Below the pieces are notes generated by a model. That model ran no database searches, had not been told where the DNA came from, and was given only the letters and a program-made list of their open reading frames with translations. This document shows, in pieces, positions 2,267 to 4,571 of a DNA stretch of 11,889 nt (position 1 is its first letter; each line of letters starts with the position of its first letter). The stretch covers positions 1 to 11,889 of the forward strand of contig CAKQAD010000036.1 of NCBI GenBank assembly GCA_934215545.1, in the 5' to 3' direction. A program made the translations under genes and the position numbers. The DNA comes from an uncultured Prevotella sp. (GTDB taxonomy: Bacteria; Bacteroidota; Bacteroidia; Bacteroidales; Bacteroidaceae).

Positions 2267-2470
2267 TTAGTCGTCCCAAGAGTCGAAATAGCGCTTGCCA
2301 CCAACAAGTGCAGAGCCTGCATCGCCTTTCTCAACAGTACCACCGTTGATATTTACAGAACCACCACCGCCTGTTCCATTACTCTCATAAGTATTGGAAG
2401 CAGCAATAGGAAGTTCAATTTCTACTTTAACAACTTTGATGCAAGGAGTCTGATATTCTTTCAAATTCAT
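2267..2470 (-). CDS. Small peptide, 67 aa, paralogue of the peptide at 4380-4571
   Basis: I do not recognise a characterised family. The product has three parts. The N-terminus (1-25) carries E5-Y6, P9, I11, V14, E17, E19 and PIAAS (21-25). A Gly/Asn/Ser/Thr-rich middle (26-47) looks disordered. The C-terminus is KGDAGSALVGGKRYFDSW (48-65) followed by two Asp. The second peptide in this window shares all these features at identical N-terminal spacing, and 17 of 18 C-terminal motif residues are the same. There is no obvious signal peptide or membrane segment. GAGG lies about ten bases before the ATG, an unusual Shine-Dalgarno-like sequence for this phylum. The gene has a consensus promoter, a roughly 190-base leader with a hairpin, and a terminator, so it is probably its own transcript. 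A precursor of a processed peptide is one speculative possibility; a small structural or regulatory protein is equally possible. Confidence 0.85.
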   Translation of the reverse strand: MNLKEYQTPCIKVVKVEIELPIAASNTYESNGTGGGGSVNINGGTVEKGDAGSALVGGKRYFDSWDD

Positions 2471-2521
2471 AATCTTTACCTCTTTTCTATTTTATAGATT
2501 AATCCTGTTTTTAAAATTTAC

Positions 2522-2572
2522 GAGCATTGCCTATTTTACCATACTTATATGTAAGGTAAAGAATCAATGCTC
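2522..2572 (-). promoter_or_regulatory. Hairpin in the 5' leader of the peptide gene
   Basis: The outer stem is GAGCATTG (2522-2529) with CAATGCTC (2565-2572), a perfect 8 bp. Inside it TTTACC (2535-2540) can pair with GGTAAA (2555-2560). It sits about 50 to 100 bases before the start codon, inside the predicted leader. No uridine tract follows directly, so it looks like a leader structure and not a terminator. I do not recognise a known riboswitch. Confidence 0.5.
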
Positions 2573-2665
2573 ACACCATGCCCAGCGTTTATAAACGGCA
2601 CGTAGATAGTTGTTTTTGTGTCACTCTCTAAATGTGAACATGCATCCTTTCTTTTTAGGACTCTG

Positions 2666-2695
2666 CAAAATTAAAACAATTTTCGCAAAACCAAA
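2666..2695 (-). promoter_or_regulatory. Promoter of the 67-aa peptide gene
   Basis: On the minus strand, TTTG (2692-2695), 18 bases, then TAATTTTG (2666-2673) match both boxes of the Bacteroidetes consensus. Transcription would start near 2659, which implies a leader of about 190 bases before the ATG at 2470. Confidence 0.75.
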
Positions 2696-2796
2696 AACAA
2701 TAAAAGGATTTTAACACTTCAAGATGTATTTTTTTATCATTTTGTCACGCTGAACAACAATGCATTATGCATTTATCCATTGTCATGGGGCTATAC

Positions 2797-3618
2797 TTAG
2801 AACGACTCAAGCCACGCCTTCAGGTCGAGCAACATCTCCACATGGCAGGCAAAATCGGGCTTCATGCCCCAGCCGTGTCCGCCAGCGGGATATACATGCA
2901 AAGCGGCAGGCACATCGTGGCGATATAGTTCGGAATAGTAGTTGACGCCATTTACCGGCATCACCTCATGGTCGTCGTCGCAAAGCATTATACAAGCTCG
3001 TGGCGTGACACGCGTCACCTGCATATCGCTGCAATAGCGTTGCTCTTCCTTCTTATGCGCCTTGGAGCCCAGCAGGTTGTCGTGCGAGCCTTGATGGGCA
3101 TATCCCTGGAGCATCGTAATGACAGGATAGAAGAGTATCTGGAAGTTGGGTTTTGCCTCTGCCTTGGCTTGTGTGGCAATGGTGCTGGCAAGATGTCCGC
3201 CTGCCGAGAAACCCATAACGCCCACATCTTCGGCATTAACATTCCATGCCTTGGCATTACGGCGCACCAGCCTGACAGCCTCTTCGGCATCGCTCACTGG
3301 CACTTTGGCATTGCCTGCAGGCATGCGATAGTGCAGCACGATAGCGGCGATGCCCTGGCGATTGAGCCATGGAGCCCAGTCGGTGCCTTCGTGCTGCATC
3401 GACAGCGTGGAATAGCCGCCACCAGGCATTATCACTACTGCACGACCAGTAGCTTTATGTGCTTCGGGCAGGAACACACGCACATAGGCGGTGTCTTGAA
3501 GTCCGTTGCGATTGGGCGCCTTTGCCTTCCAGAGCTGCACATCGAAGGTGCGCTGTCCGAAGACTGGCAGAAACACTAATGACAATAGGAGTGTTATGGC
3601 GGTATTAAAGAGTTTCAT
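2797..3618 (-). CDS. Secreted alpha/beta-hydrolase, esterase-like (acetylesterase/xylan esterase type)
   Basis: This 273-residue protein starts with a signal peptide (about 1-21, LLSLVFLPVFG before Q22). The serine hydrolase elements appear in order: oxyanion-type loop MPGGGY (65-70), nucleophile elbow GFSAGG with S138, acidic residue in the CDDDHEV cluster (D214-D216), and H248 in GGHGWG. This is the arrangement of exported esterases that remove acetyl or aryl groups from plant polysaccharides in gut Bacteroidales; the actual substrate cannot be read from the sequence. The frame is open for 23 further codons upstream, but MKLFNTAITLL gives a normal signal peptide at this start, and the -7 box (3643-3650) lies inside the longer version. 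No carbohydrate-utilisation genes (SusC/D, glycoside hydrolases) are adjacent, so it appears isolated. It is divergent from the Nudix gene. Confidence 0.88.
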   Translation of the reverse strand: MKLFNTAITLLLSLVFLPVFGQRTFDVQLWKAKAPNRNGLQDTAYVRVFLPEAHKATGRAVVIMPGGGYSTLSMQHEGTDWAPWLNRQGIAAIVLHYRMPAGNAKVPVSDAEEAVRLVRRNAKAWNVNAEDVGVMGFSAGGHLASTIATQAKAEAKPNFQILFYPVITMLQGYAHQGSHDNLLGSKAHKKEEQRYCSDMQVTRVTPRACIMLCDDDHEVMPVNGVNYYSELYRHDVPAALHVYPAGGHGWGMKPDFACHVEMLLDLKAWLESF

Positions 3619-3639
3619 TATCGTTTTTGGTTTTATTAC

Positions 3640-3670
3640 TTGCAAAAATAACGATTTTTTAGTAATATTG
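3640..3670 (+). promoter_or_regulatory. Possible promoter of the Nudix gene, overlapping the divergent hydrolase promoter
   Basis: TTG (3640-3642), 20 bases, then TAATATTG (3663-3670), one mismatch from TAnnTTTG. It would be back to back with the hydrolase -7 box. The leader would be about 55 bases. The match is weak. Confidence 0.3.
3643..3650 (-). promoter_or_regulatory. -7 promoter box of the hydrolase gene
   Basis: TATTTTTG on the minus strand matches TAnnTTTG and lies 25 bases upstream of the chosen ATG at 3618. No clear TTTG is present at the -33 distance. Its position supports the shorter hydrolase start. Confidence 0.5.
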
Positions 3671-3731
3671 CAGTCGTTAAAAGGCATTATTACTCTGATA
3701 TATACATATTTTAATATAACACTATATATTT

Positions 3732-4256
3732 ATGCATCCATTGGATAAATTCGAGTACTGTCCCATGTGTGGCAGTCATCACTTTGCCGTTAGCGGCGCA
3801 AGCAGTAAGAAATGCGACAACTGCGGCTTCGAGTTTTTCATGAATCCGAGTGCTTCTAACGTAGCCATCATCCGCAATGCTAAGGGCGAGATATTGGTGG
3901 AGCGTCGCAAGATGGAGCCTGCCAAGGGCACTCTCGACCTTCCTGGTGGCTTTGCTCAGATTGGCGAGACATCGGAAGAGGGTCTGCACCGCGAAGTGCT
4001 CGAAGAGACAGGACTCTCGGTTACTACTGCCCGCTATCTATTCTCATTGCCCAACGTATATCGTTATAGCAACATCGACATACACACTCTCGACATGTTC
4101 TATGAGTGCGAGGTGGCTGATGAGTCAGCACTCACTGCCAACGACGATGCCGCTGAGTGCTTCTGGGTGGCTCCAGACGACATCCATACAGAGCAGTTTG
4201 GCTTGCGCAGCGTGCGCTGGGGACTGATAAAGTTCTTAGAGAAGGCCGAAAAATAA
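3732..4256 (+). CDS. Nudix hydrolase with N-terminal zinc ribbon
   Basis: This 174-residue cytoplasmic protein has two parts. At the N-terminus CPMCG (C10, C13) and CDNCG (C28, C31) form a zinc ribbon like that of NudC-type and related Nudix proteins. The Nudix domain (about 40-170) carries a complete box GX5EX7REUXEEXGU: G73, E79, R87-E88, E91-E92, G94, L95. The glutamates bind the divalent metal needed to cleave nucleoside-diphosphate-linked substrates such as NAD(H) or ADP-sugars. It is shorter than typical NudC (about 250-260 residues) and lacks that protein's extra N-terminal domain, so I do not assign nudC; substrate specificity is open. It is monocistronic and ends in a very strong hairpin shared with the convergent peptide gene. 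Confidence 0.92.
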   Translation: MHPLDKFEYCPMCGSHHFAVSGASSKKCDNCGFEFFMNPSASNVAIIRNAKGEILVERRKMEPAKGTLDLPGGFAQIGETSEEGLHREVLEETGLSVTTARYLFSLPNVYRYSNIDIHTLDMFYECEVADESALTANDDAAECFWVAPDDIHTEQFGLRSVRWGLIKFLEKAEK

Positions 4257-4283
4257 GACTTTGGCGTAATAGAAAGTAAATAA

Positions 4284-4334
4284 AAACAGTTATCCCCGTT
4301 GCGGAACATAAATCTGCAACGGGGATAACTGTTT
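4284..4334. terminator. Strong bidirectional terminator between the Nudix and second peptide genes
   Basis: A perfect 19-bp inverted repeat (4284-4302 with 4316-4334) has a 13-base loop and a CCCC/GGGG core. On the minus strand it is followed by GTTTTTATTT, a good uridine tract for ending the peptide transcript. On the plus strand it follows the Nudix stop by 27 bases but has only a short T tract. It probably serves both genes. Confidence 0.9.
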
Positions 4335-4341
4335 ATGCAAT

Positions 4342-4369
4342 CATGTATTTATATAATCATGAATACATG
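4342..4369 (-). other. Small inverted repeat before the terminator
   Basis: CATGTATT (4342-4349) pairs with AATACATG (4362-4369) around a 12-base AT-rich loop, directly after the stop of the 63-aa peptide gene. It would be part of that gene's 3' untranslated region. The role is unknown. Confidence 0.35.
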
Positions 4370-4379
4370 CATGACGCAA

Positions 4380-4571
4380 TTATTCTGCATCGTCGCTCCA
4401 AGAATCGAAGTAACGCTTGCCACCTACATAAGCACTTCCTGCATCGCCCTTACCAGGAGTTCCACCGAAGTTACCACTGTTACCATCGTCACTGAGTGAT
4501 CCAGCGATAGGCTGTTCTGTCTCCATATCCACCAATATGATGGCTGGAGCAATGTATTCGTTTCGTTTCAT
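4380..4571 (-). CDS. Small peptide, 63 aa, paralogue of the peptide at 2267-2470
   Basis: I do not recognise a characterised family. The peptide has the same plan as its partner. The N-terminus has E5-Y6, P9, I11, V14, E17, E19 and PIAGS (21-25) at identical positions. A shorter Gly/Asn/Ser/Asp-rich linker follows (26-40). The C-terminus is KGDAGSAYVGGKRYFDSW (41-58) and then an acidic tail SDDAE. There is no signal peptide or membrane segment. It has its own -7 box, a leader of about 84 bases, and a strong terminator downstream, so it should be a separate transcript, although the GT90 gene upstream on the same strand has no visible terminator and could read through. Matching of protein but not of codons between the two peptides (see findings) supports real translation of both. 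Confidence 0.85.
   Translation of the reverse strand: MKRNEYIAPAIILVDMETEQPIAGSLSDDGNSGNFGGTPGKGDAGSAYVGGKRYFDSWSDDAE

Follow-up and report, generated by a model that had tools for sequence, protein, structure and literature searches.

A multicopy family of small, probably LPP-like precursor peptides in Prevotella and related Bacteroidales

What are two small, related genes for, when their products are alike at both ends and variable between? The genes lie on the minus strand of an 11,889-nt stretch of DNA from an uncultured Prevotella sp. (NCBI GenBank assembly GCA_934215545.1, contig CAKQAD010000036.1, positions 1 to 11,889 of the forward strand; the whole stretch is called ‘the window’ here), at 2267-2470 and 4380-4571. 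The first-pass annotation of the window had suggested that each joins a leader or recognition end to a functional end, and that they could be precursors of modified or secreted peptides. Both frames are present, encoding 67 and 63 residues with 54% identity (BLASTP E 4e-19, single comparison), and the three motifs it had described as common, EYxxPxI, ExExPIA[AG]S and KGDAGSAxVGGKRYFDSW, are found in each. The pair is one branch of a wider family, whose genes probably encode leader–core precursors resembling those of the phosphorylated linear peptides termed LPP, scattered over the genome, processed in trans by a leader-binding RRE protein, a kinase and a peptidase, and mostly paired with genes for surface proteins. 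The features concerned are these:

2267..2470, minus strand: peptide gene 1, precursor of 67 residues (open frame; six intact homologues; profile A5, of which both window peptides are themselves rows, matches at 3.1e-22 in the window scan, not an independent value)
2405..2470, minus strand: predicted leader of peptide 1, residues 1-22 (MNLKEYQTPCIKVVKVEIELPI), boundary placed by analogy with the LPP cleavage site, coordinates checked
2444..2455, minus strand: YxxP motif of peptide 1, residues 6-9, predicted to bind RRE; Y and P invariant in A5
2396..2398, minus strand: Ser25 of peptide 1, predicted phospho-acceptor (core position 3)
2270..2404, minus strand: predicted core of peptide 1, residues 23-67 (45 residues)
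2276..2329, minus strand: C-terminal motif of peptide 1, KGDAGSALVGGKRYFDSW, read from the sequence
4380..4571, minus strand: peptide gene 2, precursor of 63 residues (open frame; A5 2.4e-18 in the window scan, likewise not independent)
4506..4571, minus strand: predicted leader of peptide 2, residues 1-22 (MKRNEYIAPAIILVDMETEQPI), placed by the same analogy, coordinates checked
4545..4556, minus strand: YxxP motif of peptide 2, residues 6-9; Y and P invariant in A5
4497..4499, minus strand: Ser25 of peptide 2, predicted phospho-acceptor
4383..4505, minus strand: predicted core of peptide 2, residues 23-63 (41 residues)
4398..4451, minus strand: C-terminal motif of peptide 2, KGDAGSAYVGGKRYFDSW, read from the sequence

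Neither window peptide matched a Pfam or NCBIfam model at E ≤ 10, and the family had to be delimited with profiles made for the purpose. A narrow profile (A1) proved too specific (15/399 genomes); its place was taken by A2, built from the window pair and its first relatives, and by the wider A5, with 67 rows. A5 detected the family (E ≤ 0.001) in 150/201 genomes of one Bacteroidales family-level group, with up to 25 copies per genome and 803 matches in the 201 genomes, so it is not confined to one strain. A2 detected it (E ≤ 0.01) in 132/150 genomes of one genus-level group, with up to 24 per genome, and matched 209 proteins of the protein collection, the best 120 of which were listed. Many of the searched genomes are fragmented into many contigs and possibly incomplete. 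The family pattern is M-K-K-x-Y-x-x-P-x-[ILM]-x-V-V ... [LIM]-A-x-S, followed by a variable middle rich in Gly, Asn and Asp and often by an end with Trp or acidic residues. That the frames arose by chance or are dead was rejected: there are paralogues; the six further full-length relatives of peptide 1 among the matches listed (82-94% identical, 66-70 residues) are all intact; and the nonsynonymous substitution rate (dN) was below the synonymous rate (dS) in all seven paralogue comparisons used, which were drawn from the wider family and in some cases covered the first 40 codons only (an eighth, L079, was excluded for an indel). One frame at locus L117 (3578-3877) has a family-like start followed by glycine-tyrosine repeats of the SGYGEGGYGY type.

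The conserved amino terminus behaves as a ruler. When 170 sequences were reduced to 111 representatives, YxxP stood near the start of 109, a figure biased by an early listing step that selected for Y..P, a selection that did not bear on the Ser and Ala counts. Ser lay exactly at Y+19 in 94/109 (86 of these also have Ala at Y+17), and Leu, Ile or Met at Y+16 in 105/109, whereas the chance level for A-x-S at any of three offsets is ~1.5% (composition-based). Both window peptides obey the ruler, with Tyr6, Ala23 and Ser25. In the excerpts of PMC13381572 (May 2026) that describe LPP, the precursor consensus is YxxPxVLxHQxIxFETxxS, and the tested precursor is cut after T-1 to give a core that begins AQSNWK and is polyphosphorylated at Ser3. 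Both kinds of precursor thus have a YxxPx[V/I] leader and, where a variable core is predicted to start, a conserved A-x-S, and the N-terminus resembles that of LPP precursors; the cut itself is placed by prediction, and the Ala1 likeness rests on the single core AQSNWK. The earlier surmise of a leader or recognition end therefore gains from the finding of a YxxP motif typical of RRE-bound leaders.

A YxxP leader would also suit lasso peptides, and the phosphorylated lasso peptides of the paeninodin type share an RRE, an HprK-like kinase and a [Y/W]xxP leader with the present system, according to the same excerpts of PMC13381572. Lasso precursor models of NCBIfam weakly matched 4 and 2 of the 67 members (best E 0.036), one relative is labelled ‘Benenodin family lasso peptide’ by the database, and the sole PDB match of the leader profile, at E 1.9, was a lasso leader crystallised with its RRE; the family profile itself found nothing in PDB at E ≤ 5. 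Yet the lasso leader peptidase B2 (PF13471) was absent from 20/20 peptide-rich genomes, in a search that was positive in 2/14 controls, and on this ground the lasso reading was rejected; we regard it as very improbable indeed.

Candidates for a machinery acting on such a leader form a conserved cluster in peptide-rich relatives, and this favours the earlier guess of modified-peptide precursors. PF05402 (PqqD/RRE) was present in one copy in 19/20 genomes with at least 11 peptide matches, and in 19/19 of these RRE loci it adjoins a kinase and a peptidase gene. The arrangement recalls the LPP machinery of RRE, HprK-like kinase and archaeal-type signal-peptidase-like LppS, as set out in excerpts of PMC13381572, in that the RRE stands alone and the presumed leader peptidase is of the signal-peptidase-like kind. 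Among solved structures, the four that match the RRE profile best are all leader-binding RREs (TfuB1 1.5e-5, PbaB1 0.0019, and the weak matches TbiB1 0.021 and LppB 0.038). Three RRE residues, N35, Y63 and D73, are identical in 20/20 and align with N33, Y60 and D70 of LppB (chain offset deduced from residues named in the paper), which hold the leader Pro and Tyr according to the part of PMC13381572 that deals with them. In the peptidase Ser33, His71 and Asp86 are identical in 20/20, and PF00717 scored above cut-off in 2/4 members scanned. The kinase matched HprK_rel_A at 3.2e-6, under the curated cut-off, and its AlphaFold2 (AF2) model (predicted local distance difference test score, pLDDT, 93.5) appears closest in Foldseek to the PEPCK fold (4.6e-8), with HPr kinases lower down (2.7e-5); among the 50 matches listed by VIA-align there were only PEPCK entries and no HPr kinase.

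The window holds no modification enzyme, as had been observed at the outset, and the cluster of relatives is likewise encoded apart from the peptide genes: unlike in LPP clusters, in 33/34 RRE loci the DNA lying at most ~5 kb from the RRE, or less where the contig ended sooner, held no family peptide (E ≤ 0.05), and the idea that peptides stand at RRE loci as a rule was dropped at 1/34. The sole exception, L151, is an array on one strand: a gene whose product ends in the tail as judged by eye (2139-3155) is followed by a family peptide gene (3210-3401, E 2e-4), NTP_transf_5, an S24-type peptidase above cut-off and the RRE. Its genome had been counted as peptide-free in the A5 genome search. 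Inspected by eye, the five fully listed peptide-rich loci show neither an MsbA-like transporter of the LPP type nor a nucleotidyltransferase next to the cluster; NTP_transf_5 occurs in L151 and L148, an ABC transporter in L149 and L150, and at L126 an ABC-type efflux operon lies next to the cluster on the opposite strand. At L149 (5703-7382) and L150 (1972-3597) the transporter, with a membrane domain, directly follows kinase, peptidase and RRE, making a near-complete LPP-type cluster, in genomes scored peptide-free by A5. Near the kinase, peptidase and RRE genes of L128 lies the gene of a small protein (7465-7905) that belongs to no family and starts like a signal peptide; homologues occur in 16/19 loci.

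Might the precursors be bound by the RRE and receive their main change from another, unlinked enzyme, with the kinase in a minor part? Bacteroides-type sets of RRE, kinase and peptidase do lie near radical SAM genes and small KxYxKP-type proteins (L145, L148), and a nucleotidyltransferase shares the array in L151 and L148. No enzyme of that sort was seen by eye beside the cluster in the five fully listed peptide-rich loci, however, and the conserved Ser suits a kinase target; we consider this alternative improbable. The same Bacteroides-type loci, with an S24/S26 peptidase and genes of the radical SAM type (recognised by Pfam in L145 and by eye in L148), encode Cys-rich proteins of 129-148 residues starting KxYxKP, possibly a second precursor family.

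Co-occurrence with a particular enzyme, proposed earlier as a check on the peptides, was found for the kinase. At a preset presence threshold of E ≤ 1e-10, 142 of the 201 genomes had both kinase and peptide, 8 the peptide only, 22 the kinase only and 29 neither (Fisher P 2.4e-14). The association held (122/8/21/29, in the same order, P 3e-13) after removal of 21 genomes marked as training (20 supplied rows of the kinase alignment, G114 none); outside that training set peptide copy number rose with kinase score (Spearman 0.65). PorU, the sortase of the type IX secretion system (T9SS), also tracked the peptide (131 genomes with both, 19 with the peptide only, 24 with PorU only and 27 with neither; P 2.4e-8), and within PorU-positive genomes outside the training set kinase and peptide were still associated (105/6/12/11, P 2.3e-6). 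PqqD alone gave 142/8/38/13 (P 1.9e-4; one PqqD-negative genome identified by difference), a weak test because PqqD is widespread.

Beyond anything the window alone could reveal, most family members in four peptide-rich genomes are paired with genes whose products end in a T9SS-like tail. Among 58 frames read upstream of distinct family members a C-terminal end of the form TTGI...YDLxGRRVxxPxKGLYIVNGKKVxxK recurred, and 39 of the 58 ends, selected by eye for this motif (for example L004, L044, L073), were made into profile A4. Four genomes, picked for high peptide number and for which the share given here holds, contained 95 peptide places (A5, E ≤ 0.1) and 348 A4 tail matches, the best 150 of which were listed. 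In 79/95 cases a listed tail match in the same orientation ended just ahead of the peptide, which started -1 to 254 nt behind it, against a chance expectation of ~0.35; for 0/95 was a listed tail found at up to 400 nt on the opposite strand or, in the same orientation, downstream. For six of the remaining 16 the profile showed a weaker tail gene immediately upstream (L106, L107, L111, L112, L114, L115), and for one (L118) a tail was recognised by eye. Listed tails matched from the profile start were followed by a peptide in 74/91 cases and those matched in their later part in 5/59, a difference partly due to construction because A4 was built from such neighbours; behind one of the 17 unpaired long tails (L097) lay a peptide-like frame that the genome search had overlooked. 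Given this arrangement, the peptide and the upstream protein are likely partners.

The upstream proteins have YDLxGRxV...KGxYIxNGKKV at their C-terminus, which recalls the last part of the RgpB tail, but they differ from T9SS type A cargo in that the curated models of that sorting domain (TIGR04183/PF18962, from NCBIfam and Pfam) matched 0/58 upstream frames at E ≤ 0.01; weak TIGR04183 matches occurred in 7/39 tails (best 0.0014). Among solved proteins, the tail profile matched an arabinanase (4kca, 1.9e-10) and a beta-helix protein (7jvi, 7.2e-8) at their ends; its match to the tail of gingipain RgpB (5ag8) had E 0.094, not significant alone. PorU-positive genomes hold 771/803 peptide matches, a T9SS link measured via the peptide and not via the tail. 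The wording ‘T9SS-like tail’ is used because curated models reject the tail while peptide and PorU co-occur. At L074 (2796-4910) a gene for the T9SS component PorE (1050.9 bits, cut-off 600) stands directly behind a tail gene and a family peptide, the peptide lying between the two.

At three loci (L071, 3979-5313; L072, 3492-4805; L073, 5045-6385) the peptide is fused in frame to a hydrophobic, Sec-like segment with a PF01223 endonuclease behind it. Among the matches listed, 75/80 fusion relatives exceed 400 residues and carry YxxP near the start; all 75 have Ser at Y+19, and 74 have Ala at Y+17. Of the other five, four are fragments that begin alike and one is without the YxxP start. The fusion to a nuclease is conserved, and the same N-terminus therefore also serves a larger protein.

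Both this fusion and the strict order of tail gene then peptide gene would accord with a different role, in which the peptides are unmodified cytosolic partners of T9SS-tailed proteins (dedicated chaperones or secretion adaptors, for example) and the RRE cluster serves something else; by eye, moreover, the peptides have no obvious signal peptide. Against this, the peptide tracks the kinase even within PorU-positive genomes, the ruler matches a known modification site, and the middle and C-terminus are highly variable with no predicted fold, while the window copies lack an adjoining tail gene. We judge this role unlikely.

In the preferred reading, of leader–core precursors processed in trans, a stand-alone PqqD-type RRE would bind the leader at Y6-x-x-P9, the HprK-like kinase would phosphorylate Ser25, and the signal-peptidase-like S24/S26 enzyme would cut after Ile22, releasing a core of 45 or 41 residues. 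A single cluster, probably located in another part of the genome, would act on many dispersed precursors, and each core would naturally pair with, or act at, the tail protein encoded next to it. Binding, phosphorylation, cleavage and core release are inferred by analogy with LPP, as are, more loosely, the order of these steps, shared transcripts, export of the core and any role at the surface. Prochlorosins offer a parallel, one enzyme modifying in trans many scattered precursors that have a constant leader and a variable core, with lanthionine chemistry.

Several observations weigh against this reading. The leader lacks HQ..FET and is one residue longer than that of LPP in the excerpts of PMC13381572 (Ser at Y+19 against Y+18), and the family is filed as LPP-like, not as LPP, for these reasons. 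The cluster is known from relatives only, not from the window's own genome; the nearest indication is G151, which carries it (L158) and gave the best match, at 62% identity, for one neighbour protein among 16 genomes tested. Sequence searches of PDB returned nothing at E ≤ 1 for the peptidase profile and nothing significant for the kinase profile, whose matches were mostly P-loops of ABC transporters with a best E of 0.089; in the five fully listed peptide-rich loci no exporter was seen by eye on the cluster strand. The peptide of L151 departs from the ruler, with Ser at Y+18 and Y+20 but not at Y+19 and without Ala at Y+17. Eight peptide-positive genomes, one with 15 copies, gave no kinase match, and 7/8 of them also lack PqqD, from either incomplete assembly or true absence; PqqD, conversely, occurs in 38/51 peptide-free genomes. 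Shared ancestry inflates all of the genome co-occurrence tables, and the sharpest of them, 131/19/6/45 over all 201 genomes, comes from a kinase cut (1e-74) picked afterwards. Nine of the 95 placed peptides have no recognised tail gene, and both window copies stand alone in this respect. The AF2 model of peptide 1 has no confident fold (pLDDT 63.7), which fits a precursor and proves nothing, and Foldseek with that model gave a meaningless best E of 3.9.

Compared with LPP as excerpts of PMC13381572 present them, the Bacteroidales precursors are scattered genome-wide (up to 25, against one to three per cluster), often adjoin T9SS-like-tail genes instead of lying in capsule loci, and belong to Bacteroidota instead of Bacillota. 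The same excerpts state that LPP are restricted to Bacillota and that their biological role is unknown, and the term ‘bacteroid’ is absent from the main text. A search of openly licensed literature, by titles and abstract beginnings, gave nothing on the peptide family or such a pathway in Bacteroidota, and passages of PMC10352776, PMC7533575, PMC13289728 and PMC10202324 contain neither.

If the preferred reading is true, phosphorylated linear peptides extend from Bacillota to Bacteroidota, where they would be made in trans on a genome scale and tied to proteins with secretion-tail-like ends, an unrecognised way of furnishing the bacterial surface. More tentatively, and with rather more doubt than belief, Prevotella-type bacteria may run a genome-wide peptide-phosphorylation system in which one machine serves dozens of precursors co-transcribed with T9SS-exported proteins, the phosphorylated cores accompanying, anchoring or labelling these outside the cell. 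The Bacteroidales cluster of RRE, kinase and peptidase gains a likely substrate, and hundreds of unnamed small genes (the 803 matches) gain a testable role.

Around the two peptide genes the window contains the following:

2199..2222, minus strand: terminator-like stem 3′ of peptide gene 1 (terminator scan)
2797-3687, minus strand: alpha/beta hydrolase gene
3732-4256, plus strand: Nudix gene
4284..4334, no strand: 19-bp inverted repeat (4284-4302/4316-4334) between the Nudix gene and peptide gene 2, read from the sequence, not in the terminator scan
4767-5750, minus strand: family-90-type glycosyltransferase gene

Separate promoters and terminators had been proposed for both peptide genes. The sequence agrees in part: gene 1 has the terminator-like stem at 2222-2199 and one weak promoter-like match upstream at 2560-2533 (the window has 10 such sites, against 5.3 in shuffles); for gene 2 the promoter scan listed no match upstream, and the inverted repeat 3′ of it, unlisted by the terminator scan, has a 13-base loop and is followed by a T-poor tail. 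At the window's edge (1-74, minus strand) what looks by eye like the 3′ end of a tRNA-Asn was accompanied by no tRNA call from ARAGORN in the window. Finally, repeats of the ‘gaattttgagttttgaattttgag’ type, read from the sequence, occur in both orientations at 10510-10770, between genes that we take to be SufD-like and SufC-like.

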